A program made the translations under genes and the position numbers. 64,000 bases of DNA. Origin: Candidatus Cybelea sp. (GTDB taxonomy: Bacteria; Vulcanimicrobiota; Vulcanimicrobiia; Vulcanimicrobiales; Vulcanimicrobiaceae). The DNA is taken from contig DASXFZ010000060.1 of the NCBI GenBank assembly GCA_036489315.1, positions 1-64,000 of the forward strand, read 5' to 3'. How positions within the stretch are numbered: position 1 is the first letter of the stretch; each line of letters opens with the position of its first letter. Shown here piece by piece: positions 43,485-60,260 of this stretch. Under the pieces are notes generated by a model. The model saw nothing but the letters and a program-made list of their open reading frames with translations. It searched no databases and was not told where the DNA came from.

Positions 43485-43541
43485 CCAGTTTCCGGCGTAC
43501 TACACGCGGCAAACTTCGACTCGCAAAAAGCTATATAAATA

Positions 43542-43588
43542 TGGTGGGCGGTATAAGGATTGAACTTATGACCTCTTCCGTGTCAAGG
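43542..43588 (-). other. 3' fragment of tRNA-Val(GAC), likely attachment site (att)
   Basis: Read on the minus strand, this holds an anticodon loop TTGACAC, the 3' anticodon stem GGAAG, variable loop AGGTC, T-arm ATAAG-TTCAATC-CTTAT, 3' acceptor strand ACCGCCC, discriminator A and an encoded CCA. The matching 5' half (GGGCGGT..., D-arm) is missing: upstream bases do not pair. Integration at the 3' end of a tRNA gene leaves just such a fragment at the boundary facing host DNA. Gene content changes here, with a mobile-element-like region to the right. Confidence 0.75.
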
Positions 43589-44108
43589 ATTTTTGGGGTG
43601 AGCCCGACAGGTTCCTTTTCGACCACTTAACGCGCCGAAAAAGCCCATAAAATAAGACTTTCTCGCGTAGGGGGCGGAAGACCCGAGCGTGTATTCTAAC
43701 GAGCCTCCTCGTGAAAATAAGTGGTCAATAAGTGGTCATCCCGCTGAGGGGCGAGCCGGTCTGCAGTTCGTGCTCAACGGGGACCGCGCAATGGCGGACT
43801 ACCTTCAGTGCGTAAACGAGGGTCAGGATTCGAGCACAAGACCTTAAAAGCCGCGAGAGCCTCGGCACGTCTACCGAAGCTCTCGTCAGAACAATCGCCG
43901 AGGCGGAGAAGAATCTTACTAGATTTTTCGGCCTTCTGGCTTACACTCCATCGACCCAACGTCATCCGTTTCCTACCGCATTGGATTGCGGGTTCGGCGG
44001 CGTGGTTGGCTCCATGGTACGGGAGAACCACCACACCGATTGTAGCCTGCAGGAGCGCGTCCGTCAAACCCTTGGTTTACGATTGGCCCCTGTATAGATG
44101 ACCGCCTG
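43589..44108. other. Interval with no supported gene
   Basis: Frames exist on both strands but none has a credible start, ribosome site or protein-like pattern. It contains AAGTGGTC twice in tandem (43723-43738) and its complement GACCACTT near 43620. This is the element end adjacent to the tRNA fragment, where recombination arm sites could lie. Confidence 0.5.
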
Positions 44109-45191
44109 TCATCGAAGGTCAAACCTCGATTCATCGAGTCGAGCGAACAGTGATTCTACCGCCTCGTGAAAGCCTTCCGCCATTTCCGCAAACGCAGGGC
44201 CTACGTTCGGGTTAATGCTTTGCGTACCGGCCACGTAAATCGAACAGTAGCCGAAGGCTTCTCGAATCTCTTGTGCGCTTGGTAGAGCGCCTTGGCCGGG
44301 ACGCTGGCTAGTAAGCAGGTATTGCGTCAGAGCAATCTGCGCACTCATTGCGCACATTGCGAAGTCGGCCACGTCTCCCGCAGTAAGTTGTTCTCGGACC
44401 AGCACGTCGGACTTAATCATGCCTTCCACTTGCTCCGCTCGGGCGGCGAAGTCCGACAGTGGAGTTTTCGACTTCTCGGCGCTGCCCGCCGCGACCGCAG
44501 CAAGCCTTAGGATGCGCAATAACGTCTGCAACGTCCCTCGCATCTTTGCAACGCCCGCAGGCTCGTGGTCCTTCGGCCTCGGGGTATTCGTGAGCTTCGC
44601 AAGCGCCTTCAGCGGTTCGTTAATCCCGACAAGGCCAGGCTCGCGGCGCTGCGCTTCCGAAATGTCGGCTTGCGCAGCCGCGTAATCCCCCAGGGCAAAG
44701 AACGCAAAGCCGCGGACGCGAAGCGCCTCAGCGCCGCCCTTTTCGTTAGCGATTGAGACGACGTGGCTCGCGACTTTAACGCATTCCTCGAACCGCAGTG
44801 CATACCATAGTCGGATAGCCAAAAGCGCACCGACCATCACTGAGAGGGCGCTAAGCTCAGGATATTCGCCCGTAAGGATTAGGTCGCGAGTTCTTTCCGC
44901 AGCGTCGATTAGGCGACCGTCCTTGGTCTTAGCCTCATAGTCTTTGAACAAATACCCGCCGTCTACTAGGTTCGTCAGGTGTCCCGCGATAATGTCCGCT
45001 TCGGTTTTCGAAAAGGCGTTTCCAGACGCCACGCTGATAACATCGGACTCGACTAGCCCTTTGAAGAGCGTGACGTTTGCTCTTTCTTGCGTCTGACCGA
45101 GAAGGTCAACGTCATTGTTCCAGAGCCACTTGCCAAGTGTCTTTAGCTCTGGTGGCCTTCTCTTGAAGAAGCCTAGAAAGCCGCTACTCAT
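44109..45191 (-). CDS. Hypothetical protein with a TPR-like segment
   Basis: 360 residues, ATG at 45191. Mostly helical. The segment 'ALRVRGFAFFALGDYAAAQA' is a tetratricopeptide-like repeat near residue 160. The N-terminus 'GFLGFFKRRPPELKTLGKWL' is amphipathic and cytoplasmic. No catalytic motif is visible. A perfect TATAAT lies only six bases before the start, so the transcript may be leaderless. Confidence 0.75.
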   Translation of the reverse strand: MSSGFLGFFKRRPPELKTLGKWLWNNDVDLLGQTQERANVTLFKGLVESDVISVASGNAFSKTEADIIAGHLTNLVDGGYLFKDYEAKTKDGRLIDAAERTRDLILTGEYPELSALSVMVGALLAIRLWYALRFEECVKVASHVVSIANEKGGAEALRVRGFAFFALGDYAAAQADISEAQRREPGLVGINEPLKALAKLTNTPRPKDHEPAGVAKMRGTLQTLLRILRLAAVAAGSAEKSKTPLSDFAARAEQVEGMIKSDVLVREQLTAGDVADFAMCAMSAQIALTQYLLTSQRPGQGALPSAQEIREAFGYCSIYVAGTQSINPNVGPAFAEMAEGFHEAVESLFARLDESRFDLR

Positions 45192-45197
45192 GTTCAG

Positions 45198-45203
45198 ATT
45201 ATA
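45198..45203 (-). promoter_or_regulatory. Candidate -10 box (TATAAT) directly before the gene at 44109-45191
   Basis: On the minus strand TATAAT is separated from the ATG at 45191 by the six bases CTGAAC. At that spacing transcription would begin at or within a base or two of the start codon. A TTGACG lies upstream with a 13-base spacer, shorter than the usual 17, so the -35 is doubtful. Confidence 0.5.
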
Positions 45204-45305
45204 CCATGAAGGCTACCGTCAAAAACCGATACTTCTTGAAGTTTCTTCTTCGAGCGCGGCTTCACTGTTGTGTCGAGCCTTTCAGGATTCTGAATGGCAA
45301 CAGAC

Positions 45306-45734
45306 CTAGACGATTCGTTCGACCCGTTGGTCTGGGTGAATGACGTATGCCCATATTGAAAGCGTTTTAAGGGCGTCTGCGGCCGCTGTTATGTGACGGC
45401 GATGGCTTGGCGTATCGGGAAAGGCAATCGCCACTTGCGACTTGGGTTCACTCGAATGCAACTTCAATGCTGTTAATAGAGCATTGGCAACATGGTCTCG
45501 CTGCTGATTGGTAGTAAAACCCTTACCGTAACGGCCGGTTCCCTCTTTCCTTGACGTTCCGCCCTTCGCCTCCAAGACGAATCCCTCGTTGCCGCGTTCG
45601 GCTTTAAGGTCAATGCCGGTTTGCTTTTCAGTGCAGGTGCTTTTAATGGTCCACCCGTCAGCCTCCAGATGTTTGACAACGGCACGAATCACATCACTCT
45701 CAGTCATTCGCAGAGCATCGCCGCGCTCTTTCAT
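45306..45734 (-). CDS. PD-(D/E)XK nuclease-fold protein
   Basis: 142 residues (133 if the second ATG at 45707 is used). The nuclease core is 'EKQTGIDLKAERGNEGFVLEAKGG': an Asp in GIDLKA and the E-A-K triad of the second strand (shown in pieces), followed by a helix with 'TTNQQRDHVANALLTAL' and a conserved-looking 'SQVAIAFPDTPSHRR'. It resembles stand-alone restriction-endonuclease-like or Holliday-junction-type proteins of mobile elements. No methylase partner is nearby. Confidence 0.7.
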   Translation of the reverse strand: MKERGDALRMTESDVIRAVVKHLEADGWTIKSTCTEKQTGIDLKAERGNEGFVLEAKGGTSRKEGTGRYGKGFTTNQQRDHVANALLTALKLHSSEPKSQVAIAFPDTPSHRRHITAAADALKTLSIWAYVIHPDQRVERIV

Positions 45735-46271
45735 TTGACTCGCGTTCTAGCGGGACGCTCCACAATCATCTCAGCCTCGCATGGTAAAGCATCGAGCGTA
45801 CACCCGAAAGCCACGAGCTTCGCGGGCAACGCGGCGCATGGTACTGACTATTTCGGCGCATACATTGCATGGCAGATACTCGTCGTCGTTCTGTGGTCGT
45901 TAGTGTTTGCAGTTTGCCGGGCCAAGAATCGCTATGCGCCGACGTGGCTTATCGCGACGTTTTTCTTCGGGCCGATTCCGCTGGTCATTCTCGCGTTCAT
46001 GCCACGGCCCGAATACCGAGATGATGAACTCCACAAATGCCCATACTGCCTTTCCTCGATACCGCTTCGCGCCTCAGTTTGTCGCTTTTGTCAGAGAGAG
46101 ATTCCATCAGCCGCGATGACACCCGCCGCCGTAAGGGTAGAAGACCAGAGCGCGCCCGAAGCTCAAGGGAAGGCCACTTGCAAGTATTGCGGCGGTGCAG
46201 ACGCCGAGGTTCGCGGCCTCTACGGAAACTCGTATCACCGTGCCTGCCATGCTCAAGCTCTGGCATCATAA
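45735..46271 (+). CDS. Membrane protein with C-terminal zinc-ribbon motifs
   Basis: About 178 residues. Two hydrophobic segments ('YIAWQILVVVLWSLVFAVC', 'TWLIATFFFGPIPLVILAFM') are followed by two Cys-pair units, 'CPYCLSSIPLRASVCRFC' and 'CKYCGGADAEV' with a later 'YHRACH'. The latter look like metal-binding ribbons. The start is uncertain: the frame is open to 45621, and the TTG at 45735 is a guess that avoids overlapping the divergent nuclease gene. Confidence 0.6.
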   Translation: MTRVLAGRSTIISASHGKASSVHPKATSFAGNAAHGTDYFGAYIAWQILVVVLWSLVFAVCRAKNRYAPTWLIATFFFGPIPLVILAFMPRPEYRDDELHKCPYCLSSIPLRASVCRFCQREIPSAAMTPAAVRVEDQSAPEAQGKATCKYCGGADAEVRGLYGNSYHRACHAQALAS

Positions 46272-46473
46272 AGAAGTTACTTTCGTTTGGAACGAAGGGG
46301 TCTACTTGCCTGCAACTTGCTCACCCGCCGGGAGACCCCATGGTGCAGATGATAGAAGGCTTCTATAGCGTATCCCAAAATGGGGTACACTAGGACGGGG
46401 TGGAAGAGGTGGAGGGGGCGCGCTTTTGTGAGCGTCACGCCTGCGAAGCGTGTCTACTTTGAGGAGTTACGGA

Positions 46474-46983
46474 TTGACTAAGATTGCTGTTCTTGTCTCT
46501 TTCGGTTTGGTGCTGTCCTTAACGGCTCATGCCAAGGCTGCTTGCGACGGTACCGACAAGCTAGGTGTCGTCCTCACAAGTGCCACGGCGATAGCAAAAA
46601 TGCCAAGTGATACGCCTGCTCAGGTCCGCGAGCGTGAGCGAGTCTTGGGAAACACGTCCGCACTCTTGAATAAGGCGCAATACGACATCAACTTTTGCCT
46701 CAAGCTCGGAACTCTTACCGGCACCGACGCGAGCGATATAATAGGTCAGCAAGCGATTTGGCAAGCTGAAGTATTGCTGGGAGTTCTTGCTGCGCCGGAT
46801 GTCTTCGCCGTTAGCTCTTTCGTAGCTGACCCAACGTGCAAGAAGTACGCGCGAGACGTAGGCAGTTACATCCTTTCAAATGTTAGTTCAGATAATCGAA
46901 CTGGAGCTGACCCGCTTTCGCGGACGGTTTTTGATTGGACATCAGGCGGCTTGACTCCGCCGTTGTTGCCGTTGCAAGAATAA
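46474..46983 (+). CDS. Secreted hypothetical protein
   Basis: 169 residues from a TTG at 46474 with GAGGAG eight bases upstream; an ATG-free upstream extension to 46450 is less likely. Signal peptide 'VLVSFGLVLSLTAHAKA' followed by a helical domain with three Cys. No family recognised. The last 118 bases overlap the convergent tailspike-like gene. The 200 bases upstream (46272-46473) contain a small GTATCCC/GGGGTAC hairpin and no gene. Confidence 0.65.
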   Translation: MTKIAVLVSFGLVLSLTAHAKAACDGTDKLGVVLTSATAIAKMPSDTPAQVRERERVLGNTSALLNKAQYDINFCLKLGTLTGTDASDIIGQQAIWQAEVLLGVLAAPDVFAVSSFVADPTCKKYARDVGSYILSNVSSDNRTGADPLSRTVFDWTSGGLTPPLLPLQE

Positions 46984-48083
46984 TGGCCGCCGAGAACCTC
47001 GATACTCGTCCCGCCGTCTATTTGAAGGCCGGGGCCAGGCCATTGGCACGAAAAGCAATCAACAAACCGCACCGTGTCAATGATGTTATAATCGTCTACG
47101 GGACCCACCACGATACCTGCGGGATTGTCGTCTCCAACGTTGCTTCCCGGCCCGAACTCACACTGGGCAAACCAAACTTGCGTGACATACACCGTCTTCG
47201 TATCAGAAGCGCCGCCGTTTGGGATGATTTGCAGCGCAACCTCTGAGGAGAAGCAGCTTACATTTCCGAAGTACAACTTTCGAACGCCGTCCGTGTTGTT
47301 GTTGGGCTCGATTTTGATTGAGTTCGTCCAGCCTTCGAGACGGGTGTTGACCATGCGAAGATGCTCCGCGCCGTATATCTCTATCCCAGTCCCGCCGGTT
47401 TTATAGCATCCGAAAGTGGTTCCCGCAACGTACGTTTCAATAGCCGAATGCTTTTCATCAGGGTCACCAAGGCGCAGTCCGACTCCACCGCTGACCTGTT
47501 CAACGCGGATGTCGGAATCAATGATGCTGCAGTGCAAGCTTTGTACAAAGTGAACCGCCGCATCAGGAACCTCATCCAAGGTTACGCGCAAAAGGCGGAC
47601 GTTGCCGTGTGCTGCGACGACGCCTCGCCCGCCTCCCGCGCCTTCCGCATTCACGAAAGAAATCATCAGGTCCTGAAAGACGACTCCGGCGATATTGTCG
47701 TTACCTGGAGCACCCATTGCATCGGAATGATTGTTAACGAGGAAAAAGTCCTGGGCGCTATCAGTCATCTGCAAAATAGGGTTTCCGCGGTCCTGAGCGC
47801 CGGTGCCGCGAAGGATGATATTGGCGGGATAGAAATGCGCGCCGACCGGCCCGATGCTTATCGTTGAACTGAAAGCATAAGTCGAGCCACCAGAGGGGTC
47901 GCCGGTCGATGGGAACTCCAAGGTACCTCCTTGCCCTTTCGTTATACCTGAGGGGTTCAGAAGGGACTCTATCATGGCCTGTAGATTGGCGCTATTGTCG
48001 GTGCTGCCGTCCGGGACCAAGGCGTTTCCTGCACCCCACACAGTGGTGTCTGTTACATTGAAGAGGCCGTTCAAAACTGACAT
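46866..48083 (-). CDS. Right-handed beta-helix (tailspike / pectate-lyase-fold) protein
   Basis: 405 residues, ATG with AAAGGA upstream. The N-terminus 'FNVTDTTVWGAGNALVPDGS' with 'DNSANLQAMIESLL' is the opening of the pectate-lyase superfamily in phage tailspikes. Short parallel-helix rungs follow ('IILRGTG', 'GVVFQDLMISF', 'VRLLRVTLDEV', 'LRMVNTRLEGW', 'VRFVDCFSCQW'). It ends without a distinct C-terminal domain and overlaps a convergent gene by 118 bases, so it may have been cut short. No signal peptide; probably a receptor-binding or glycan-cleaving tail protein. Confidence 0.8.
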   Translation of the reverse strand: MSVLNGLFNVTDTTVWGAGNALVPDGSTDNSANLQAMIESLLNPSGITKGQGGTLEFPSTGDPSGGSTYAFSSTISIGPVGAHFYPANIILRGTGAQDRGNPILQMTDSAQDFFLVNNHSDAMGAPGNDNIAGVVFQDLMISFVNAEGAGGGRGVVAAHGNVRLLRVTLDEVPDAAVHFVQSLHCSIIDSDIRVEQVSGGVGLRLGDPDEKHSAIETYVAGTTFGCYKTGGTGIEIYGAEHLRMVNTRLEGWTNSIKIEPNNNTDGVRKLYFGNVSCFSSEVALQIIPNGGASDTKTVYVTQVWFAQCEFGPGSNVGDDNPAGIVVGPVDDYNIIDTVRFVDCFSCQWPGPGLQIDGGTSIEVLGGHYSCNGNNGGVKPPDVQSKTVRESGSAPVRLSELTFERM

Positions 48084-48146
48084 TGCTTTCTTATCCTTTC
48101 CGTGTTCTAGAGTTTTAAATGAAGATGAGGAAAGTCCAAGCGCGGG

Positions 48147-49109
48147 TTAGGACGCTGCGCGACTTACAGCAACGGCACGAGCACCGCCACTTCCTGAAAG
48201 TGTAAACGTCGGCGCGCCGCCTTCAGGGTATCTGTAATAGAGCACGTTGCTTTGAGTAGTGCTCAGAAGATTTGGAACGATAACGGTCTTGCCGTCAATA
48301 ACGTACTGAAGCACGATGTACGCTGGTGCGCCAAGAGGTGTCGCGCCCACCTTGTGGGCTTTTGTTCCGCTAATCTGAAACTGATAGATATTGACCTTTT
48401 TAGTATTAGAAATCGCCGTTAAAAGCCCATCATTCCATTGAAGGCCGCCCTCAACGTAAATAGACGCATCGGCTTTCACGTTTACAAAGTGCGAGGAGCC
48501 ACTCCGCAACTCGGAAAGCTGCTGCTGTTGGGCCGTTCCAGGCTTTATGCCGAGAAAGAAGAGGTCCCCTTTGTCGTCGTACGTAACAAGTGTCCCGTAT
48601 TGCATGCGTTTATCGCGGAAGGTTATCGGTTTGCCTTTCGCCGCTCTGTAGATTTCAAGATAGCTTGCGGAGCCGCAGATTGCTAAGTCTCCTGTTGTCG
48701 GACTGATGGCACAGGATAGAGGAATCGCATCTGCTGGAAAAAGGGCGATTCGCTTGGTCCGTCCGTGACCATATTCATTAGCTCCCCGAGGTTTGAAGCT
48801 TGTAATAAAAACATTGCCTTTGCTATCGACGCACTCACCGGCAGCCGAAGTGAAGCCCTTGAGGTCGCCAACCTGCTTTCCACCAGGATAAGTAAAGACG
48901 AGTACGTCCGAATACGCCGAAACGTATAGCAGATTCTGGCTTTTTGCTTCTGGCACCATCCATGAGCCAGTGCGGCCGTCCACTTGCGCTCGCTGAGGGA
49001 CCGCGCTATTCGCACTGGGTGCATTACTCGGCGCAAAAGAGCCGCAACCTGAAAGAAACACAGCAATAGCGATGGCGTAGGTAGCCTGACGCCAGAATCG
49101 TCCGTTCAT
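48147..49109 (-). CDS. Beta-propeller lipoprotein of the host family, inside the mobile region
   Basis: 320 residues from the ATG at 49109 with GGAAGG upstream; an upstream start at 49169 is weaker. Lipobox Cys near residue 22 (VFLSGC). Blade phrases match the chromosomal family: 'LLYVSAYSDVLVFTYPGG', 'DSKGNVFITSFK', 'SPTTGDLAICG', 'YDDKGDLFFLG' and 'LYYRYPEGG'. Its presence 5.6 kb into the element suggests capture from the host lineage. It lies 64 bases from the tailspike-like gene on the same strand. Confidence 0.85.
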   Translation of the reverse strand: MNGRFWRQATYAIAIAVFLSGCGSFAPSNAPSANSAVPQRAQVDGRTGSWMVPEAKSQNLLYVSAYSDVLVFTYPGGKQVGDLKGFTSAAGECVDSKGNVFITSFKPRGANEYGHGRTKRIALFPADAIPLSCAISPTTGDLAICGSASYLEIYRAAKGKPITFRDKRMQYGTLVTYDDKGDLFFLGIKPGTAQQQQLSELRSGSSHFVNVKADASIYVEGGLQWNDGLLTAISNTKKVNIYQFQISGTKAHKVGATPLGAPAYIVLQYVIDGKTVIVPNLLSTTQSNVLYYRYPEGGAPTFTLSGSGGARAVAVSRAAS

Positions 49110-49395
49110 CGTTAGCCTTCCATAAGTCTCGTGTCGCTCGGTTTTTCCGCTTGGGGTTTCGCGCACCAAACAGGTGGCTCCGCTCGCTCAACTAACGCGA
49201 TTTGGCTAGAAAACGTGGCGGGCTGACTACGAAAAACTAAGCTAGGTTAACCTTTATGGGTTGACATTTGCTGATGTATCCAAGTTTGACGAGGAGGCCA
49301 ACTTGTGGCGAGAGGTGGCCTCGGATAATCGAACAGCCGTCTAAGTGATGACTTCGCTCCATCGAAGGCGAAACAGCCTTCAGAAGGAGCATCTC

Positions 49396-49617
49396 GTGAC
49401 ACGACAGGAGCATCTCGTGACACGACGTTCTCGCCGGAACCACTCCCCGGCCTTCAAGGCAAAAGTGGCGCTGCTCGCCGTACACGGCGAGCTCACGATG
49501 GCCGAGCTCTCCAAGAAGTTCGACATCCACGCTAACCTCATCACGTAATGGAAGACCCAACTGCTCCAAAACGCCGTGACGGCGTTCGACGGCAGCAGCG
49601 TCAAGGCCGAAGAGGGC
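49396..49617 (+). pseudogene. IS3-type transposase OrfA remnant
   Basis: From the GTG at 49396 or 49417 the translation 'TRRSRRNHSPAFKAKVALLA' and 'AELSKKFDIHANLIT' is the N-terminal helix-turn-helix of IS3-family OrfA. A TAA at 49546 then replaces the usual Gln codon before 'WKTQLLQNAV', and similarity ends near 49617 against the neighbouring gene. The 21 bases holding the start codon (AGGAGCATCTCGTGACACGAC plus flank) are duplicated in tandem at 49385-49426. No OrfB or clear terminal repeats remain. The stretch 49110-49395 has no gene. Confidence 0.7.
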
Positions 49618-49626
49618 CGGGAACTC

Positions 49627-50157
49627 CTATTTCTTGGTTCGGGAAGACGTGCGCGCTATCCAGCCTTCGCAGAGGGTCTTGAGCCGAGTCAGCCGCTCAA
49701 GCGAATCAGGCGTAACTGCTTGTATTACGTCATTGAGCTTTGGCATCGCCTCGCACAGCGACAGCAGTTGCGGCGAAAACCTATTGGCGAACATTCGCTT
49801 ATCTAGGACATCTTCGGAGTAAAGTTGCTCGGCATGCATGTAGAAGTTCAAGATGGTAGGAAAGCATTCGACCAAGGCACGGTACTGTTTACGCCGGTTT
49901 TCATCGGCGAGGTTGTCTTGACGCTGTTTGTTGTAAAACTCTTTGAGGACGCGAGCCTCCGCAGGGCGGTCGGCATATAGCAATATTTGGCAGAAGGCAT
50001 TGTAAGGCGTAATCGCTACATCACTATTCAGTTGTAAGGGAAGCTGAAAGTATTGAGTGATTAAATCAATGGTTTGAGCTTTTTGAAAGTTCGACGCTTG
50101 ATTTTGGAGGATAGCCTGCGTGGTTCTAACAGAGGCGGAAGTGTACCACGCCAGCAA
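49627..50157 (-). CDS. Hypothetical protein, probable N-terminal membrane anchor
   Basis: 176 residues from the annotated start, but the frame is open upstream to about 50220 and codes a convincing hydrophobic helix ('FASLFSAFASLLVAGGTLLL') with no ATG, GTG or TTG before it. Either a rare start such as CTG is used or the 5' end has been lost. The soluble part is helical ('TQYFQLPLQLNSDVAITPYN'). No family recognised. The interval to 50389 holds nothing else. Confidence 0.6.
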   Translation of the reverse strand: MLAWYTSASVRTTQAILQNQASNFQKAQTIDLITQYFQLPLQLNSDVAITPYNAFCQILLYADRPAEARVLKEFYNKQRQDNLADENRRKQYRALVECFPTILNFYMHAEQLYSEDVLDKRMFANRFSPQLLSLCEAMPKLNDVIQAVTPDSLERLTRLKTLCEGWIARTSSRTKK

Positions 50158-50389
50158 AAGAGTCCCGCCCGCAACAAGAAGACTTGCAAACGCAGAAAAG
50201 AGAGACGCGAACGCGAGTATGTCAAGGCCTCTTAGCAGACTTTATGCAAACACCGCACCACACGCGCCGCAGGTGATGAAGGCAACTGGGTAGAGCCATG
50301 CAACCCAGCGACTTAAGTTCTGCACGGTAGCAACCGCTGGGGGTCTCGGCGCGCACGCTCTGTTGGCCGTTCAGACGGCAGCGTCAACG

Positions 50390-50743
50390 TTAAACCCCTT
50401 GCTCTACTGGCTCGGCAGCGTCAATCTCACTCGTCTTCCAGTTTGGATGAAATCGAAAAGCCGTCGGAAAGAGATGCGACACGACGCGCAGCACGGGAGG
50501 CGCAATCGTCTGCCGCTTACAGTATCGACAGGTATAGGAGTCGCGAGCAAAGACCGCCACGCGCCGCTTCATAGACCAGGCCATCCGGGTCGAAGGCTCC
50601 AGAGCCCCAGGATTAGCCAGAAGCTCGACTAGCTCACTCAACTCCGAAGAATCGCCCGCCGCGATAGCCTTAGCTAAAGCCCCGAAGCGGGACGTATACG
50701 CATCATCGAATGGGGCAAAGGAAGGGCCGTCCGAATCGCTCAC
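50390..50743 (-). pseudogene. HNH endonuclease, truncated after the first Cys pair
   Basis: 117 residues from a GTG. 'RRVAVFARDSYTCRYCKRQT' followed by 'PPVLRVVSHLFPTAFRFHPN' and 'WKTSE' is the first half of a common HNH family. The catalytic His-containing half that should follow is missing; the protein ends 'IDAAEPVEQGV' instead. The upstream sequence 50744-50949 holds only the leader of the next gene. Likely a non-functional remnant of a mobile HNH gene. Confidence 0.7.
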
Positions 50744-50949
50744 GCAAGGACTCCGCCTGCTCTAAAGGCCGTCAACACGGAACAAACCCAAAGCTCGCAT
50801 AGATGCAGCATTCGACTAGCTAGGTTTAGATGGAGCGACCGAACGGCCTCCAGGTCGGGGGACCATCCTCGCGAGTCGCTGAGCAGAAGGAAATGGCACC
50901 TTACTCACAATAGAGTCGGGTCCGACTTCAACGGGCCGGGAGGAGTAAA

Positions 50950-51291
50950 ATGAGTCAACCGCTCGTCATCCGTTTCGAAGAGCCAGAATGGGACATCGCG
51001 TCGGCCGCCGAGTTTGAGCGCCTGCTCGCCCCCGCCCTGAACTGTCCCACCGTCATCATCGACCTCAGCGCCGTGACCTATATAGACTCGACGTGCCTCT
51101 CGAAGCTCGCCAAGCTGTACGCAGACAGAGTCGTCAACACGGGCTATCCGCCGAGCCATCTCGTAATCAACACATATGCAGTAACGCGACTTTTCAGTAT
51201 CGCAAAGTTCGAGCGCCTGTGGCCGATTCACAAGACTATAGACGAGGCCCTCGCAGCCCTGGGAGCAGAAGCAACTCATCCCAGGACGTAG
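50950..51291 (+). CDS. STAS-domain protein (anti-sigma factor antagonist-like)
   Basis: 113 residues with GGGAGGAG before the ATG. The STAS fold is visible: 'PEWDIASAAEFERLLAPAL', the strand 'TVIIDLSAVTYIDSTCLSKL' with the Ser of the phosphorylation loop (DST), and 'ITRLF'-like helix ending 'FERLWPIHKTIDEAL'. In the SpoIIAA family this Ser is phosphorylated by an anti-sigma kinase; no kinase is in the window. A paralog is at 53443. Confidence 0.82.
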   Translation: MSQPLVIRFEEPEWDIASAAEFERLLAPALNCPTVIIDLSAVTYIDSTCLSKLAKLYADRVVNTGYPPSHLVINTYAVTRLFSIAKFERLWPIHKTIDEALAALGAEATHPRT

Positions 51292-51706
51292 CCTTACCGG
51301 GCACAAGCCTACTGGCAAAAAGGGTGTATCAAAAGGGTCCCGATTTCCGACTCCGAGTCTTATTTCGTTGCAGTCTATAGCAACGCAATGCGATTTGAAG
51401 CCACGTCGGCGGCTGAAAGACCTGAAGAAGGAGTGCGCGATTGCGACGATGCGAGACTTTCCCAGGCCGCTCATTCACGCGCGCATTTCTGACGGAATCC
51501 GGGCGTTCTAAGCGACGGTAGCCGGTCCCGAGTACCAGAACACTCCGGCCAGTGCTGGAACGCAGCCACAGTACCGTAAAACAGGTGCCAAAGGCAAAGA
51601 AGAAGGCTCCGGTCTTTTCACCAGAGTCCTTGCTCCAAAATCACGCCGCCTAGGCCTCCGAATACCTCTCCCAGTGTCTGAGTCGAGAGACACTTCTAAG
51701 GCGCAG
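51292..51706. other. Interval with no supported gene
   Basis: No convincing gene. A short frame ending at 51510 reads 'RRLKDLKKECAIATMRDFPR', protein-like but lacking a start, so perhaps the tail of a lost gene. Confidence 0.4.
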
Positions 51707-52081
51707 CTACGCGGCCTCTCGACGTATGGCAGCCGCCTCGAACTCCGACATGGCCGGTAAAGCGTGAGCGATGATGTCGTCAAGGTCTTCTATAGTGAAG
51801 GTCATCGGATGCTGCGCTCTCAATAGGATTCCGATTTCCTGTTCGACTCCTGCGAGACAGGCCGCCTCCAAAAGGTTCGGAGTGTGCCCTGCGGCTTTGC
51901 ATTCCAGTAGCACAGCTACGACTCGTCCGAGGACTCTGGCTTGCTGTAGAAAATCTACGACCTCTGCGCCTAGTTCGGCTCGAATATCGTCGAGCATTAC
52001 GGAAACTACTTCGGGCGGATTCTCAAGAACTAACAGAGGAAAATATTCTGCCTCCGAATCGACAGTCTCAAAATCGCTCAA
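51707..52081 (-). CDS. Hypothetical acidic protein
   Basis: 124 residues from a TTG start preceded by AAGGAGA at six bases. Helical and acidic ('MSDFETVDSEAEYFPLLVLE', 'VVSVMLDDIRAELGAEVVDF'), no domain known. The ribosome binding site lies next to one arm of the inverted repeat that flanks the recombinase gene. Confidence 0.6.
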   Translation of the reverse strand: MSDFETVDSEAEYFPLLVLENPPEVVSVMLDDIRAELGAEVVDFLQQARVLGRVVAVLLECKAAGHTPNLLEAACLAGVEQEIGILLRAQHPMTFTIEDLDDIIAHALPAMSEFEAAAIRREAA

Positions 52082-52087
52082 GGTGTC

Positions 52088-52105
52088 TCCTTATATGAAG
52101 TGTCG
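52088..52105 (+). repeat. Left arm of an inverted repeat around the recombinase gene
   Basis: TCCTTATATGAAGTGTCG on the plus strand; the minus strand carries the right arm at 53013-53030 with one mismatch (17 of 18). Read inward the arm contains ATGAAGTGTCG, the first codons of the recombinase gene at the other arm. Read outward it is close to the ribosome binding site of the gene at 51707. Confidence 0.75.
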
Positions 52106-52321
52106 CCTCGTCTCAATAGACGTGCGCCGGTGGGTATTTCCGAGCATGTTAGCATGCATTCGTTAGCTTGAAAACCTCAAATAAAATAATGGCTATAGGC
52201 TGCGGCAGGGTGCTAACAGACTACAGGCAGGTTTCGTGCTCAAACGCCAAACTAAGCGACGATTATTAGAAAATACTCTCGGGACTCCAAAGGGCCTGGC
52301 AGGGCTAAAAATCCCCGACAG

Positions 52322-53023
52322 TTACTCCAGCCCGAGCCGCTCGAAAACACGGGTGACCTGGACGGCTGTCCACTGCCTACCGTTGAGCGTTTGATGACCT
52401 TCGTCGTTAAGCGCGCGAGCGATTGCACGAAGTGACAGGTTACGACGCGCGAGAGCTTTGACGCGCGGATAGACTTCCTCGGCGTAGGCTTCGTCGGCGC
52501 GCTTGGCATGCATGGCTGCAGCGGCCTTCCCGCCCATCAGGCGCGCTTTGTAGGTCAAGTTCCGGCACTGCGGCAAGCTTGCACCGAGACGGCCGCCACG
52601 GGCCTTGTATGCCGCAAGGGCGGCCCTAGTACGCGCAGAGATGGCCTCGGCCTCGTGTTCTGCTACAGCGGCTAAGATTTGGATGGTCAGCCGGTTCGCG
52701 GTTGGATTGTCGCAAGCTACGAACTCGACACCGGACTTCATAAGCTCGGCGGTGACGTAGACACTGCGCGTCAGGCGGTCGAGCTTGGCGATGACGAGTG
52801 TGGCCTTCGTCCGCTTCGCATGCCGGATGGCCTTCCGTAGCTCAGGGCGGTTGTCGAGGTCGTCGCGATGGCTGGACTCGACCTCAGTGTATTCACCGAT
52901 TAGTTCACAGCCTGTGGACTGGACGTGCTGCTTGACTGCGGCCTCCTGACCCTCAAGACCGAGACGAGAACGACCTTGTCTCTCCGTCGAACAGCGGTAG
53001 TATGCGACCAATCGACACTTCAT
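52322..53023 (-). CDS. Serine recombinase (resolvase/invertase family)
   Basis: 233 residues from the ATG at 53023, which begins directly with the catalytic domain: 'AYYRCSTERQGRSRLGLEGQ' with the nucleophile Ser in RCST near residue 11, 'IAKLDRLTRSV' and 'EHEAEAISARTRAAL'. The C-terminal part has a short helix-turn-helix ('SLRAIARALNDEGHQTLNGR', 'WTAVQVTRVFERLGLE'). This size is that of resolvases and invertases, not large phage integrases. The start codon lies inside the right arm of an inverted repeat. Confidence 0.92.
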   Translation of the reverse strand: MKCRLVAYYRCSTERQGRSRLGLEGQEAAVKQHVQSTGCELIGEYTEVESSHRDDLDNRPELRKAIRHAKRTKATLVIAKLDRLTRSVYVTAELMKSGVEFVACDNPTANRLTIQILAAVAEHEAEAISARTRAALAAYKARGGRLGASLPQCRNLTYKARLMGGKAAAAMHAKRADEAYAEEVYPRVKALARRNLSLRAIARALNDEGHQTLNGRQWTAVQVTRVFERLGLE

Positions 53024-53030
53024 AGAAGGA
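53013..53030 (-). repeat. Right arm of an inverted repeat around the recombinase gene
   Basis: TCCTTCTATGAAGTGTCG on the minus strand, the partner of 52088-52105. It covers the recombinase start codon. The pair encloses about 940 bases holding only the recombinase gene. Confidence 0.75.
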
Positions 53031-53137
53031 CTGTAACAAATCATAGACGTTCGGTCAAGGTTTGTTTCGGCACTGAAACCGGCTAAATCCAGTCTAAAGT
53101 CCCGCGCCACCTACTTGTGTCGCGAGTCGAGAGCTAG

Positions 53138-53238
53138 ACCGGGGGATGGGATGCAACAGCAAAGGAATCCGGCTCGCCGACGCGCCAGCACACACCCACC
53201 ATCACGTCTCATTTCTAGATTCGATACCGGGGGATGGG
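53138..53238. repeat. Direct repeat ACCGGGGGATGGG, two copies
   Basis: Copies at 53138-53150 and 53226-53238, 88 bases apart, in the otherwise gene-free interval 53031-53442 upstream of the recombinase. The position next to a recombinase makes a binding-site role conceivable. Nothing else was recognised in the interval. Confidence 0.4.
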
Positions 53239-53442
53239 TCCCTAATAGAAATGCCTCGGCAATCCGTGATTCTCGATTCTCGAAAATATAGGCGGCGTTT
53301 TTGCGGGTAAGCCGTTGCCGCCCACCGAAGTAATAAACCTCCGCCCTCTACGCTGTCCCCGATAGCGCTGCCTAGGGATTTAGTCTGGAGTTCAAAGCCT
53401 CGTAACATCTACGAGCATCGTAACCCAGTTCGAAAGGCCCTT

Positions 53443-53793
53443 ATGGCAGACCTCGACCCCGTAGTCGTCACATTTGTGCGGAGTGAATGGGACCTTAGTT
53501 CGCGCGATGAGTTGGCGAAGCTTCTAGAACCTGCGCTGACCCACCAGAACGTCGTACTTGATATGACGGGAGTAACTTACACTGACTCTACTGTTTTGGG
53601 TGCACTCGTTAACGTGCAGCAGGAAAGAATGCGCCATGAACTCGGGTACTCACGCATCGTCCCTTCACGTCAGATGCGCCGCCTTTTGAACCTATCCGGC
53701 TTGGGCGCAATATGGCCACTGCACGAAAGCGTTGATGCTGCTCGTTCCGAGGCTCAAGTGGCGGCAGCACCCTCGGAAGAGTTTCAAAGGTGA
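53443..53793 (+). CDS. STAS-domain protein (anti-sigma factor antagonist-like)
   Basis: 116 residues. 'VRSEWDLSSRDELAKLLEPA', 'NVVLDMTGVTYTDSTVLGAL' with the phosphoacceptor Ser/Thr in DST, and 'LLNLSGLGAIWPLHESVDAA' parallel the STAS protein at 50950 over the full length. The next gene starts in its stop codon (GTGA), so they are coupled. It may act in a partner-switching pathway whose kinase is elsewhere. Confidence 0.82.
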   Translation: MADLDPVVVTFVRSEWDLSSRDELAKLLEPALTHQNVVLDMTGVTYTDSTVLGALVNVQQERMRHELGYSRIVPSRQMRRLLNLSGLGAIWPLHESVDAARSEAQVAAAPSEEFQR

Positions 53794-54071
53794 CCGCTCA
53801 GACACTGACGGAAGCTGACCGTCTTTCGAGTTCCATTCGGCGAGCCGCTGATTCGTACGCTAATCGTCCTGCGATGCTCAGCGTACGAGAAGCAAAGCTC
53901 CGCGTTCAATGCATCTGTACCTCCGAAAAACTTGAACGGAAGTCCGACGAAGACTTAGAATCGCTTGCGCATGAAATGGTGCAGCTTACCCTCGACGGCA
54001 AGATGCGCGGGGGCAGAATAAAACGATTGCAGAAACTATCCGACTCATCTTCCGCGACTTTCCGGCCGTGA
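53790..54071 (+). CDS. Hypothetical protein coupled to the STAS gene
   Basis: 93 residues from a GTG overlapping the STAS stop by four bases. Helical, charged ('AADSYANRPAMLSVREAKLR', 'LESLAHEMVQLTLDG'); no domain known. The coupling suggests a partner of the STAS protein. Confidence 0.6.
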   Translation: MTAQTLTEADRLSSSIRRAADSYANRPAMLSVREAKLRVQCICTSEKLERKSDEDLESLAHEMVQLTLDGKMRGGRIKRLQKLSDSSSATFRP

Positions 54072-54453
54072 TGCTCGTCCTCGCCTTGCGACCTTCATTA
54101 CGAGAGGGTCTCTCCTGAGCGATACTTGTCGTGGCTCCTCCCGATAGGCCTTATTGGGCTTTGGGCCTCGCGAGGTAGGAATCGCCAGTCCTGACGTGCA
54201 GTTATGAGGCTCGGCCTCGGTGGCCGTATCTTCTGGAAGCCGAGGCCCCGGCGCGAAAGTGTGACGCAGTCGAATCAGAGCCTCAGGGTCGAGCGAGAGT
54301 TCCCAACCGTTATTTTCTTACCCGGAACTCGTTAAAGCGTAACCACAAAAGTGACCCGGTTATGGGAAATCGGCAATCTACGTCTCTTTGGGCTGCAATC
54401 CGTTTGAAGTCTCCCGAATATCGGAACTCTCCAGTACGAGGGGGCGCATCACA
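54072..54453. other. Gene-free interval with a stem-loop
   Basis: GGCCTCGG (54213-54220) and CCGAGGCC (54240-54247) form a perfect 8-base stem with a 19-base loop, without a U-tract. The rest holds no supported gene. AGGGGG near 54439 serves the next gene. Confidence 0.45.
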
Positions 54454-54621
54454 ATGGCTCAAACTTACAAGCCCGGCGAAATCGTACCGAAGACCAGCAA
54501 GGTACAGTGCGTCGAACATGACTATATCGAAGACCACGTCGAGGCGGGAACGCGCTTCGCGCCGTGTCACCATTTCAACGAGAAGGGGTCGGCGAAGGGC
54601 TGCGCTTGGCAATACGTCTAG
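54454..54621 (+). CDS. Small Cys/His protein, probable metal-binding knuckle
   Basis: 55 residues from the ATG at 54454 with AGGGGG upstream. 'MAQTYKPGEIVPKTSKVQCV', then 'EHDYIEDHVEAGTRFAPCHH' and a late Cys in 'GCAWQYV'. Three Cys and four His in a short protein suggest zinc binding. Its opening resembles the YjzC-like small proteins of Firmicutes. It directly precedes a PNPOx-like gene, as does a similar small protein at 56084. Confidence 0.65.
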   Translation: MAQTYKPGEIVPKTSKVQCVEHDYIEDHVEAGTRFAPCHHFNEKGSAKGCAWQYV

Positions 54622-54698
54622 CATAGGTGGATTCGGAAACGGGGCCGCTGGAAGAAAAGTAAGCGGGACTTTTTCAAACTGACGGTAACCGCTTGACG

Positions 54699-55136
54699 GT
54701 GATAGTCGAGCAAAGCGGCAAGCCTTTCGACCTTGACGTGTTTCTGGCGCGTCCAATGATGGCGCACCTGGCTACCGCTTCGGCAGATGGACCCCGCGAG
54801 TCTCCGGTCTGGTTTCTTTGGGAAGATGGCGCAGTTTGGCTCGTCGGTACGTCGAGCGATAGCTTTCCTAGGCGGATTCGGGACGATACACGATGCGCTA
54901 TCGGCTTTGTAGACTTTCAACTTGAGCGCGGCCTCTTATTGCACGTCGGAATGCGCGGGACGGCGACTGTAGAACCTTTAGATACCGCGCGGCTGCATCG
55001 TCTGCTTCAACGGTACCTCGGCGCAGAGGAGAAGTGGAACCCGGAGTTCGCGCGGGCCGTTATCTATCCGCTCGACCTCATGGTTCGCTTCGTTCCGCAC
55101 TCTGTTGTCGCGAGAGACCAATCCTACTTCCTATGA
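54699..55136 (+). CDS. PNPOx-like (split-barrel flavin-binding) protein, copy 1
   Basis: 145 residues from a GTG at 54699 that aligns with the ATG of the near-identical copy at 56282; a TTG two codons upstream is possible. The split-barrel pattern is 'LARPMMAHLATASADGPRES', 'PVWFLWEDGAVWLVGTSSDS' and 'RCAIGFVDFQLERGLLLHVG'. Members bind FMN or F420 and oxidise or reduce small molecules; the substrate is not known. Confidence 0.85.
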   Translation: MIVEQSGKPFDLDVFLARPMMAHLATASADGPRESPVWFLWEDGAVWLVGTSSDSFPRRIRDDTRCAIGFVDFQLERGLLLHVGMRGTATVEPLDTARLHRLLQRYLGAEEKWNPEFARAVIYPLDLMVRFVPHSVVARDQSYFL

Positions 55137-55287
55137 ATGTCAGAGCAGTGCGCGGTCTGTTCCGTTTATCCGTGGGATTGGCCCGTTAGCATGAGCCGTG
55201 GGTTGTGCTCACGATTTCATTGCCAGCCCTCCACGAGGTATGTTTCTAGCAAGGAGTTTCGGCCAAAACGTGTTCTCAGTTGCTTCC

Positions 55288-55779
55288 CTAGGTCTCGACG
55301 TTATGAGCACGTTCTGCCTGCGTCCTTTGCGCCGTAGTCAGCGGATAGATTCGCGACAACAGCGACTCGATAAATCTCACGTCGGCCTTTGTAAAGCCTG
55401 CAGCACTCATCCGTTCGACGATGGACTCGCCGAACGAGCGCCCGAGAAGGGCAAAGGCTACGGGGTTGACTGTCTCTGTCAATGCTTCAAGGCCGGGCTT
55501 CCAAGGTTCGCCACTTTGAATGCGAGAGCCGTTCGTTGCGATATGGTGCGCTACGGTCTGCCGTTTCTGTTCGATAGTCTGATGACCGGAGTTCTTCTGG
55601 TATGTACCGCGCTTAGGTTTGATGAGGAAGCCATCTTTGAGCATCTGCTGAAGATGATAGTTAAGAGTGACCATTTTTACGTCGGTATGGTGGTTCGCTA
55701 TTGCGGCAACCGTAAGAGGTTTGGCGTGCTTATCAAAGTAGCCCCGTAAGCGAGTACGAATAAGAGAAGCTTTTTTCAT
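55288..55779 (-). CDS. Winged-helix-like putative DNA-binding protein
   Basis: 163 residues with AAAGAGA before the ATG. The first 60 residues look like a winged helix: 'PLTVAAIANHHTDVKMVTLN', 'YHLQQMLKDGFLIKPKRGTY' (the wing). The remainder is helical and basic. It lies between the two PNPOx-like genes on the other strand and could regulate them. Confidence 0.65.
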   Translation of the reverse strand: MKKASLIRTRLRGYFDKHAKPLTVAAIANHHTDVKMVTLNYHLQQMLKDGFLIKPKRGTYQKNSGHQTIEQKRQTVAHHIATNGSRIQSGEPWKPGLEALTETVNPVAFALLGRSFGESIVERMSAAGFTKADVRFIESLLSRIYPLTTAQRTQAERAHNVET

Positions 55780-55871
55780 TCATTCTCTTTATAGTTAGTC
55801 GCACCAGGACCCCTCTGTTTGCGGAAAGCCATTAGTCCTTACTTCGTGACCTCGCAGACTGCGTCGAGTAG

Positions 55872-56066
55872 GTGCTCAGCCTCGATGGTCGAACCTCACT
55901 CGTCGTGAAGAAGGTACTGCTTGGAGCGGCGGTCCTCGGCTCCATTATTGTGTTAGCGGTTCTGTTGAAAGGCATTTGCCCGATGAGTATCTTCAGTAAC
56001 CTCTGCCCAGCTTCGATTTCTAGCGCAAGCACTAGCAGCAGCACAAGTACGAGTACCATTCCTTAA
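55872..56066 (+). CDS. Possible small single-pass membrane protein
   Basis: 64 residues or fewer. A hydrophobic helix 'VLLGAAVLGSIIVLAVLL' is followed by two Cys and a Ser/Thr-rich tail. A GTG at 55905 is a tighter start than the ATG at 55872; neither has a clear ribosome site. Confidence 0.35.
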   Translation: MLSLDGRTSLVVKKVLLGAAVLGSIIVLAVLLKGICPMSIFSNLCPASISSASTSSSTSTSTIP

Positions 56067-56083
56067 CCTACGAGGTAAATCGT

Positions 56084-56254
56084 GTGAGCACAGCATCAAA
56101 ATCAGCCGACTATCGTTGCGCGGACGGTCACGAGTTCCACAGTACGGGGTGGGAGGACGGAGCGCCGGAGACTCTCCCGTGTACTCAACTCCTTGAAGGT
56201 AGTCAAGACCGCTGCCGGAAAGAAGCGCGACGCTTTCACGGACGCAGCGCCTAA
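56084..56254 (+). CDS. Small Cys/His protein before the second PNPOx-like gene
   Basis: 56 residues from a GTG at 56084. 'YRCADGHEFHSTGWEDGAPE', then Cys at about 33 and 'DRCRKEARRFHGRSA'. Spacing of Cys and His suggests a metal site. Order and distance to the following PNPOx-like gene match the pair at 54454/54699. Confidence 0.5.
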   Translation: MSTASKSADYRCADGHEFHSTGWEDGAPETLPCTQLLEGSQDRCRKEARRFHGRSA

Positions 56255-56281
56255 CTCTTTACGCGCCATTACCCCTCCTAT

Positions 56282-56767
56282 ATGATTCTCGAACGAAGCG
56301 GCGAGCCATTTGACCTCGATGCCTTTCTAGCGCGGCCGTTAATGGCGCACCTCGCAACGGCATCGGCGGACGGCCCGCGTGAGTCTCCGGTGTGGTTTCT
56401 TTGGGAGGACGGTGCTGTCTGGCTAGTCGGTACGTCGAGCGATAGCTTCCCGAAACGGGTTAAAGATGAACCGCGCTGCGCTCTTGGCTTCGTTGACTTC
56501 CATCTTGACCGGGGCGTCTTGCTGCATGTCGGAATGCGGGGAACCGCGACCGTAGAGAAGCTGGACGAGGCTCGCCTATATCGGCTGCTTGGGCGTTACC
56601 TCGGGGAAGAAAAGGACTGGAATCCGGCATTTGTGCGGAGCGTAATCGAGAACCTCGACCTCATGGTACGCTTTACACCGCAGTCTGTGGTGATGAGGGA
56701 CCAATCCTACTTTCTACGGACGATGAGCTACCCTGGGCAGGTGGCGTCCCCTGAAGCGTCCGAGTAA
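56282..56767 (+). CDS. PNPOx-like (split-barrel flavin-binding) protein, copy 2
   Basis: 161 residues. Nearly identical to the protein at 54699 over 145 residues ('LMAHLATASADGPRESPVWF', 'RLYRLLGRYLGEEKDWNPAF') with a short extra tail 'MSYPGQVASPEASE'. Probable flavin- or deazaflavin-dependent oxidoreductase. Divergence from copy 1 at many synonymous-looking sites shows that the duplication is not very recent. Confidence 0.87.
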   Translation: MILERSGEPFDLDAFLARPLMAHLATASADGPRESPVWFLWEDGAVWLVGTSSDSFPKRVKDEPRCALGFVDFHLDRGVLLHVGMRGTATVEKLDEARLYRLLGRYLGEEKDWNPAFVRSVIENLDLMVRFTPQSVVMRDQSYFLRTMSYPGQVASPEASE

Positions 56768-56777
56768 GAGGCCATCT

Positions 56778-56864
56778 ATGGCTCGTCGCACGAACTTCGA
56801 AACTGGAGCAGCATACGTCGTCGCCTTCGGAACTGTTGTTCTCGCCGCGGTCACGGCGTGTTAG
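56778..56864 (+). CDS. Very small membrane peptide
   Basis: 28 residues from ATG to TAG: 'MARRTNFETGAAYVVAFGTV' then 'VLAAVTAC'. A single hydrophobic helix. The next gene starts inside its end (GTG at 56858, a different frame). It may be the detached N-terminal anchor of that gene. Confidence 0.4.
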   Translation: MARRTNFETGAAYVVAFGTVVLAAVTAC

Positions 56865-57415
56865 CTTACGATACGCACAAGGTCGCCCAACTTACCTACG
56901 AGGAAACGTCCTTGGAGCGGAAGGTCGTTATCGTCCGGTTGTGTGACACGGCGTCGAGAGAAGAAGCGAAGGACGGGGACGGAGTCATCGACTTTCAGCC
57001 CCACTCTCCTGACGGTTTCGAATCTAGCGACCGTTTGAGCAGAGACATTCTCGTCGGTCAGTACCTTCGCTCGAAGGCCGATGACTTCTTGAGGTGCGAG
57101 GTGCTCAACTTCGGGAGTTTACCCCTCTTGGAAGTCCAACTTGCGATGACCGGCGTCACGAAGACGCGCACCATTGGCATAGAGACAAGCCCGTTTCTTT
57201 CGGTTCCGGCCGGTGGTCTGGGTACATTTTGGTTCGTCAACAACAGCGACGTAACGGCGACGGTCCATTCACCGAACCCAGCGCGGTATCAAATCTACGA
57301 GACAGGCGAGACTGTAGTAGCACCCGCGCAGCCTATACTAAACGACCAATGGGTGATTAAGCAAAATCGACCAGTCATGGAGTATCTAGACCAAAGGTCG
57401 ATGTCTCCGTTCTAG
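56858..57415 (+). CDS. Hypothetical protein
   Basis: 185 residues from a GTG overlapping the small peptide gene. Beta-rich middle ('VLNFGSLPLLEVQLAMTGVT', 'AGGLGTFWFVNNSDVTATVH'), ending in 'QWVIKQNRPVMEYLDQRS'. No signal of its own; a frameshift fusion with the preceding peptide would give a membrane-anchored exported domain. Family unknown. Confidence 0.6.
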   Translation: MLAYDTHKVAQLTYEETSLERKVVIVRLCDTASREEAKDGDGVIDFQPHSPDGFESSDRLSRDILVGQYLRSKADDFLRCEVLNFGSLPLLEVQLAMTGVTKTRTIGIETSPFLSVPAGGLGTFWFVNNSDVTATVHSPNPARYQIYETGETVVAPAQPILNDQWVIKQNRPVMEYLDQRSMSPF

Positions 57416-57417
57416 GG

Positions 57418-58317
57418 CTACGAGGACAGTTGCGGAGGCACGTACTCGTTGTGCCAAACAGCGCCGACGTTGTCCTTGAAAGCGGCTTTCCCTGATGCGT
57501 CGCCGTGAATCTCTTCAAAGGAGGCGAGCAACTCTAATACGTGGTCAAGAGCGGTAAATAGGATGACGTTTGGGCTTGCCGGTCCAATTTCGATTATGTT
57601 ACCCGTCCTCTTGCCGTCACCATCAAACTCGATTACATCGCTGATGATAACCTGGTCCCCGTGCAAGAAGGCACTTTGCATCCTCCAGTTCGCCCGCATG
57701 CTGGAGTATCGGTCATGCATAGGTGCCGCGTAATAGGAAATCACTTGGCGCACTCTGACTTCATGCTTGAGCAAAAATGCCACCATGTCAGCAAAAGCCG
57801 AGCCGCGTTCCTTCTCTTCAGATTTCATAAGCTTGGTCAGGCTCTCGCGAACCTCTTCAGGCCAAACGGAGGGGTCGTAGAGATTTAGCACTTTCCCGAG
57901 CTTGTAGTTCCAGTTATCCCAGTCACGAGCGGTCTCCATTTTATCCTTTAGCATAACATGCGCTTTATTCTTGTACTTGTCGCGCACGTTCATGTATTGA
58001 ACGACGTAATAACGCAAGCGAATGTCATAATCCACGAGGGCGCGGCTGAGCATGTTCGCGCCACGAAGCTGCCCAGCGTTTAAGAGAATGACGGTTGAAT
58101 CGAACACGTCGCGCGCAAGCACTCCCAAGACGATTGCCCAGTCCCGTAGGTACTGCTCCGGCTCACTCTTGGCAATGCCCTCTTTTAGCTTCTGTATGTT
58201 CTTTTTGAGCAGGTTGCTCGCTTCGACGCATAAGGTGTTCGCGGCCGGGGTTAGCGCACTTCTTACGTTGTCCACCGTTCGCTTATCTTTCAATCCCTTT
58301 GATGTCGTGCTGTCCAA
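57418..58317 (-). CDS. Hypothetical helical protein (DUF5677-like pattern)
   Basis: 299 residues from a TTG. Helical throughout: 'FDSTVILLNAGQLRGANMLS', 'RALVDYDIRLRYYVVQYMN' and 'ANWRMQSAFLHGDQVIISDV', a pattern I associate with DUF5677-type proteins, function unknown. The 5' end overlaps the upstream gene by 35 bases; shorter starts are possible. Confidence 0.65.
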   Translation of the reverse strand: MDSTTSKGLKDKRTVDNVRSALTPAANTLCVEASNLLKKNIQKLKEGIAKSEPEQYLRDWAIVLGVLARDVFDSTVILLNAGQLRGANMLSRALVDYDIRLRYYVVQYMNVRDKYKNKAHVMLKDKMETARDWDNWNYKLGKVLNLYDPSVWPEEVRESLTKLMKSEEKERGSAFADMVAFLLKHEVRVRQVISYYAAPMHDRYSSMRANWRMQSAFLHGDQVIISDVIEFDGDGKRTGNIIEIGPASPNVILFTALDHVLELLASFEEIHGDASGKAAFKDNVGAVWHNEYVPPQLSS

Positions 58318-58975
58318 GACTGAAGTGCTGGCCGGTTTGGAAACTGCCGCCCTCAGACGTGCCGCTGACTGTTATGTCGATATGGACTTGTTTCGTAGGT
58401 TCGTCGCGGTCAAAAAACGCTCGGACAACATCGGCGACCTTACCTTCAAGGAGCTTATTCAAATATATATCGTCTCTGATTGAGCGGGCTCTTAGTTCAA
58501 GCGCTGCAGAAAGGATTAACTCAGTGGTTGGTTGTGAGAACCAGACCACGGCTTTTAGGTGAGTGACCTCAACGTCGTAGAGCGAAAGGTTCGTAAGGCG
58601 AAGGGTGAGGCTTATTTGTGGTACTTGGGTCGTGAACAGGACGATAAGCGGAGCAATGCTGCGTAAGCTTATATCAATGTCCTTGCCTCGAGGCTGCGGT
58701 GCCACCGTGATGGGGCCTAAGTTCCCAAAGTGCAGTCTTTCGGGCTGTGACAATGCAATCACTCGCTGAACAATGCTGATTAGGCCGAGTAGAGCAAGGA
58801 ACGTCACCGGGAAGGAAATCCACAAAGGTATGTTTGAGGCGACTTTACCAAATATGTCCGCGATGCCGACAGCTTTAGGAACGACGATTAGGATAGCTGT
58901 AGCCGTTAGGGACCCTAACACACTCCAAAGATAGCTCCAGGCATGAAATGAACGCGCATCTTGTTGTCCGGTCAT
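58283..58975 (-). CDS. Membrane protein of unknown function
   Basis: 230 residues. Two transmembrane helices near residues 15-35 and 48-70 ('IPLWISFPVTFLALLGLISI') followed by a cytoplasmic or external beta-rich domain ('LIVLFTTQVPQISLTLRLTN'). Overlaps the next gene on the same strand, so probably one operon with it. Confidence 0.65.
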   Translation of the reverse strand: MTGQQDARSFHAWSYLWSVLGSLTATAILIVVPKAVGIADIFGKVASNIPLWISFPVTFLALLGLISIVQRVIALSQPERLHFGNLGPITVAPQPRGKDIDISLRSIAPLIVLFTTQVPQISLTLRLTNLSLYDVEVTHLKAVVWFSQPTTELILSAALELRARSIRDDIYLNKLLEGKVADVVRAFFDRDEPTKQVHIDITVSGTSEGGSFQTGQHFSLGQHDIKGIER

Positions 58976-59131
58976 ACTTGTGAGTTTAGCACTTTCGCGG
59001 GTACAGGTGCCTCGCTTCTACTCAGCCGACTACATGATTGAAACGTGTCAACTGTCGAACGATAAATGAGTTACGCCGTCGGTTATTGAGGATGCGAGAC
59101 GTTCTAGGGGCACAAGAGACGCATTCTTGCG

Positions 59132-59984: not shown

Positions 59985-60257
59985 ATGATTGACGACTTCC
60001 AGAAGTACACCGGATACACCAAGACGCTGGAGCTAGTTTCTCTATTCCTAGAGCGACGAGGCTATTCGTTCGTAGGAGTGCCGACGCAGCACAGTTACCA
60101 CAAGAACTTCATCGCCACGGACGGCGTCGCTTCGGTCATCGTCAGCATCTATAACACCGGCGCGCTCGACGTTCCCGGCTCTAGCGGCGGAAGACTTCGG
60201 ACAATCCTTGAGAGCTTCCGTTCTATCGTCGGTCCAAAACCCAAAGGTGCGAAGTAA
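59985..60257 (+). CDS. Hypothetical protein, start of the replication-type operon
   Basis: 90 residues with GAGGGG about ten bases upstream. 'TKTLELVSLFLERRGYSFVG' and 'FIATDGVASVIVSIYNTGAL'. No domain known. The following two genes are packed closely, at 3-base spacing and then overlapping. Confidence 0.6.
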   Translation: MIDDFQKYTGYTKTLELVSLFLERRGYSFVGVPTQHSYHKNFIATDGVASVIVSIYNTGALDVPGSSGGRLRTILESFRSIVGPKPKGAK

Positions 60258-60260
60258 AGC

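Follow-up and report, generated by a model that had tools for sequence, protein, structure and literature searches.

An integrative island in the 3′ part of tRNA-Val(GAC)

A 23.6-kb integrative genomic island almost certainly occupies the tRNA-Val(GAC) gene of this genome, by insertion into the 3′ part of the tRNA. Its left end lies in the 64,000-base stretch of DNA that was analysed, i.e., the window, which comprises bases 1-64000 of a 147,856-base contig in a draft metagenome assembly (3.09 Mb, 64 contigs). Coordinates greater than 64000 refer to the contig, past the end of the window (contig position equals the position in locus L003 plus 59,999).

The left end is marked by a 48-nt 3′ part of tRNA-Val(GAC) with its CCA, at 43542-43589 on the minus strand. 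Its sequence, TCCTTGACACGGAAGAGGTCATAAGTTCAATCCTTATACCGCCCACCA, starts with the final three bases of the 5′ anticodon stem, followed by the loop TTGACAC (anticodon GAC), the 3′ anticodon stem, the T arm, the 3′ strand of the acceptor stem and the encoded CCA. The initial annotation had placed a tRNA-Val(GAC) 3′ half at 43542-43588; the fragment is real, and only this right coordinate fell short, by a single base. As had also been claimed, the 5′ half is missing. Neither ARAGORN nor Rfam finds a tRNA in the 64,000-base window, so that the window has the fragment without a complete tRNA gene.

From the orientation of the fragment, the intact tRNA had been predicted to lie past the right end of the element. 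A whole-genome search with the 45-base core, allowing up to 3 mismatches, returns exactly two sites, each a perfect match on the minus strand, at 43545-43589 and 67176-67220. The second copy, whose absence was to count against the prediction, is thus present past base 64000, 23.6 kb away and in the predicted orientation. It lies within a complete tRNA-Val(GAC) gene (contig 67173-67247, minus strand), regenerated at the integrase end of the element; the integrase gene had likewise been anticipated beside the intact tRNA. In full, the perfect direct repeat is 49 bp long (43541-43589 and 67172-67220), with a chance expectation of ~1e-20 and a copy-to-copy distance of 23,631 bp. The features that define the ends are as follows.

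43541..43589, minus strand: displaced 3′ part of tRNA-Val(GAC); 49-bp repeat, the left attachment site, which bounds the element on that side
43541..64000, no strand: portion of the 23.6-kb element inside the window; it runs on to contig 67220
43621-43629: GACCACTTA, a single inverted copy of the arm-type repeat, left end
43719..43738, plus strand: AAGTGGTCAATAAGTGGTCA double repeat, putative integrase arm-type sites, left end
contig 65810-67033, minus strand: tyrosine integrase, 407 aa (Pfam Phage_integrase 7.1e-21; PHROG integrase 3.3e-62)
contig 67079-67098, plus strand: putative right-hand arm-type repeats

Aligned with solved tyrosine recombinases, the integrase has the arginine, RHT, LGH and C-terminal tyrosine motifs in place, with the first histidine of HxxR replaced by tyrosine; it is ~31% identical to mycobacteriophage and Thermus phage integrases over 91-93%. 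With 3 mismatches allowed, the genome has only two copies of AAGTGGTCAATAAGTGGTCA, one slightly inward of each element end (43719 and 67079), and paired AAGTGGTCA repeats are confined, genome-wide, to these two ends. This position is as expected of integrase arm-type sites, and the repeats probably function as such. Base composition also changes at the ends: G+C is 0.550 in the element, 0.610 in the left flank and 0.647 in the right flank.

We propose that the circular form of the element would carry an attP with the tRNA 3′ half. Upon integration, this copy would have been substituted for the host's 3′ half of tRNA-Val(GAC), so that an undamaged tRNA gene would remain beside the integrase, and the 3′ half that the host had before would have moved to the far end, at 43541-43589. 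The recombination chemistry, and that the island was once mobile and may still be able to excise, we infer from the sequence.

Cargo and class of the element

Between its ends the element carries the following features.

44109..45191, minus strand: 360-aa ORF with a weak TPR match
45306..45734, minus strand: 142-aa ORF of no assigned family, possibly PD-(D/E)XK nuclease-like as judged by eye
46866..48083, minus strand: 405-aa ORF, beta-helix-like by eye, with relatives within the same genus
46901-46964: IS3-type insertion-sequence end, joined in frame to the 405-aa ORF at its 3′ end
48147..49169, minus strand: lipoprotein-like ORF of 340 aa, of which the genus has many chromosomal paralogues
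50950..51291, plus strand: STAS-domain protein (Pfam STAS 1.3e-8)
52322..53110, minus strand: serine recombinase of the resolvase family (Pfam Resolvase 9.5e-25), the element's second recombinase
53443..53793, plus strand: STAS-domain protein, anti-sigma antagonist-like
54693-55136 and 56282-56767, plus strand: two related PPOX-type flavoprotein genes, 73-78% identical as DNA
55288-55779, minus strand: HTH ORF between the flavoprotein genes
57418-58317 (299 aa) and 58283-58975 (230 aa), minus strand: two ORFs of no family
60421..60855, plus strand: replication-initiator-like winged-helix protein (HTH_36; Pfam 2.4e-8; PHROG replication initiation 4.1e-13)
60854..61146, no strand: four palindromic 22-bp repeats, GATGTGTCTCcagaGACACATC, directly after the replication-initiator-like gene
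61037..61771, plus strand: 244-aa ORF with a relative, 49% identical over 164 aa, in the related element described below

Part of the cargo has decayed, since it is an IS3-type end that terminates the 405-aa ORF. In another genus, this 64-bp sequence stands directly after one that reads, by eye, as the C-terminus of an IS3-type transposase, and near-identical copies occur in many genomes of the class, ending transposase-like genes or at contig ends. An attachment or diversification sequence, another reading of this block (97% identical across genera), was rejected in favor of the IS3-type end. The four GATGTGTCTCcagaGACACATC repeats might constitute a replication origin. Inverted repeats of 28 nt (82%), at 52088-53030, stand on both sides of the serine recombinase gene and may be recombination or operator sites belonging to that gene. 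PADLOC, applied to ten cargo proteins, gave one weak match to defence systems.

The interval could also be a defective or cargo-laden prophage, or a phage satellite, instead of a plain genomic island; we regard this as possible, though unlikely. The integrase is of phage type, small HTH genes are present at the integrase end, and the replication-initiator-like gene resembles those of phages. However, capsid, terminase, portal, tail and lysis genes were not recognised above noise among the ORFs scanned (~40 against Pfam and ~30 against PHROGs), the one structural PHROG match, to the ORF at 45306-45734, having an E-value of only 0.005. Searches of IMG/VR and INPHARED gave no close relative; in these viral collections the 405-aa cargo protein has no match, and the integrases are only distant ones. 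Relaxase genes, expected of an ICE or IME, and type IV secretion genes, expected of an ICE, were absent from the Pfam scans of the element's ORFs. An integrase and a replication-initiator-like gene with palindromic repeats are present, with no recognised helper-hijacking gene. Because it has a replication-initiator-like gene without recognised phage structural or conjugation genes, the element is best called a genomic island, perhaps a satellite-like one; we claim neither a prophage nor an ICE.

A related element at the same tRNA

A second member of the family is found at the same tRNA site in a congener, Candidatus Eremiobacterota isolate palsa_1485 (G014). On contig PMUK01000053.1 (17,006 bases) of this genome, an integrase 84% identical to that of the island lies directly at tRNA-Val(GAC), and another contig (C229, locus L102) carries the other end of the same G014 element. 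The left end of the island is 92% identical to the latter over 124 bp, including the repeat pair AAGTGGTCAATAAGTGGTCA; past these 124 bp, the G014 contig has a two-base assembly gap and then the 3′ end of the tRNA, flanked by chromosomal DNA that differs from that beside the island. Common to both elements are the ends, the integrase and a short part of the DNA near the integrase, with no other shared DNA in the end portions of the G014 element that were compared. Where they are comparable, the two elements are mostly different DNA.

Flanking DNA and an integration hot spot

To the right of the island, tRNA-Val(CAC)-Asp-Phe and the genes that follow are conserved in congeners, which supports the island model. 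On the other side of tRNA-Val(GAC), the DNA is different in each congener examined, and the cyclase-containing left flank was beside this tRNA in none of the five genomes where the flank was traced (G010, G007, G002, G004 and G019). Because of this variability, no congener examined provides a strict empty site with the same left flank, which counts against the model; the claim that the fragment is the edge of an integrated element is nonetheless supported. The left flank also includes, at 1250-23105, a series of paralogous ORFs of ~450-500 aa that all match one G007 gene, i.e., an expanded family (for example 1250-2650, 2766-4205, 13502-15019 and 16119-17537).

Detached tRNA 3′ stubs with the same 5′ boundary, TCCTTGACAC, are present in two further congeners, G016 and G013, and tRNA-Val(GAC) is thus an integration hot spot. 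Their positions are listed here, locus L100 being G013:C3:281000-300500.

G016, C55:33131-33175: detached stub
G013, L100:10867 and 14344: two detached stubs
G013, L100:18777-18848: intact tRNA-Val(GAC)

In G013, two small elements of 3.48 and 4.43 kb are stacked behind tRNA-Val(GAC), at L100 10867-18848. They have end sequences in common, with GTTGCTACC repeats, and differ in cargo, with a pentapeptide-repeat protein in one and a DUF4760 protein in the other. None of the eight ORFs scanned in these intervals encodes a recognised recombinase, and the two elements are possibly passengers moved in trans. The outermost G013 stub ends in CCA and the intact gene (L100:18774-18848) in AAGT; integration therefore seems to have cost the gene its encoded CCA. 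In G016 (L055:9129-9176), it is the stub that is without CCA, and the intact gene has it. A serine recombinase gene (L055:9283-10068) directly adjoins the G016 stub; its product is only 35% identical, over 147 aa, to that of 52322-53110.

Given such stacking in G013, the left flank of the island might itself be an older element behind the same tRNA, in which case 43541 would be an inner boundary of an array and not that between chromosome and element. The flank shows no synteny with what other genomes have at tRNA-Val(GAC), and a gene 77% identical to window 37150-38133 is close to the G016 stub. We nevertheless consider this reading improbable: no further copies of the tRNA 3′ part are detected left of 43541 with up to 12 mismatches in 45, the G+C content of the flank is near chromosome values, and the gene pair at 42145-43484 has its conserved counterpart, likewise as a pair, in four congeners.

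It is extremely improbable that the 49-bp fragment resembles a tRNA by chance or results from faulty assembly, for although misjoins can arise from identical repeats in a draft genome of 64 contigs, the chance expectation is that given above, the outer flanks of the two copies differ, element-specific repeats stand at both ends, and both ends have a counterpart in G014. A misjoin at the 49-bp repeat keeps a small residual probability, since the assembly is a draft from a metagenome; the G014 assembly is broken and gapped at this same repeat. An intron in the tRNA is not supported, as the adjoining DNA belongs to an element end that is conserved in G014 too, and Rfam gives no hit anywhere in the window.

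Beyond the single island, we would speculate, with rather low confidence, that tRNA-Val(GAC) is a shared docking site in this Eremiobacterota genus. Integrase-bearing islands with conserved ends would swap cargo there, recombinase-less passengers (3.5 and 4.4 kb, with GTTGCTACC arm-like repeats) would be moved in trans, and each integration would rewrite the tRNA 3′ end.

Comparison with known systems

The host is an uncultured soil bacterium (Candidatus Eremiobacterota), and the boundaries of the element are now exact; 23.6 kb of cargo can therefore be separated from the core genome. A full-text search of the literature returned only passing mentions of prophages and integrases in this phylum. 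As a hot spot across the genus, the tRNA-Val(GAC) site could serve in finding further islands.

The element has its integrase family in common with temperate phages that use tyrosine integrases, from which it differs in having no recognised virion, packaging or lysis genes. Phage satellites and the hitcher elements called tycheposons (on which see PMC10803314 and PMC11389934) resemble it in being anchored at a tRNA, in combining an integrase with a replication-type gene, and in carrying exchangeable cargo and no structural genes; the element differs in that no hijacking module is recognised in it.

The closest correspondence is with the tDNA islands of Islander, 3760 of 3919 of which leave a 3′ fragment and 2083 of which use the anticodon sub-site (PMC4383910). 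As in that scheme, the interval has the intact tRNA gene on one side and a piece of that tRNA on the other; the two share the minus strand, and the piece is at the lower coordinate, i.e., downstream of the tRNA. A tyrosine integrase gene lies within the interval (contig 65810-67033), whose length of 23,631 bp falls in the 2-200 kb range. Islands of the 3′-fragment, anticodon sub-site class have the same layout, with a tyrosine integrase inside, the intact tRNA at the integrase end and, at the far end, a displaced 3′ fragment that points the same way. The 23.6-kb element shows no structural difference from them, and is set apart by a little-studied host phylum and by cargo that is in part of no known family. 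That is, its layout and mechanism are those of an ordinary textbook tDNA island, and only the host and the cargo are new.
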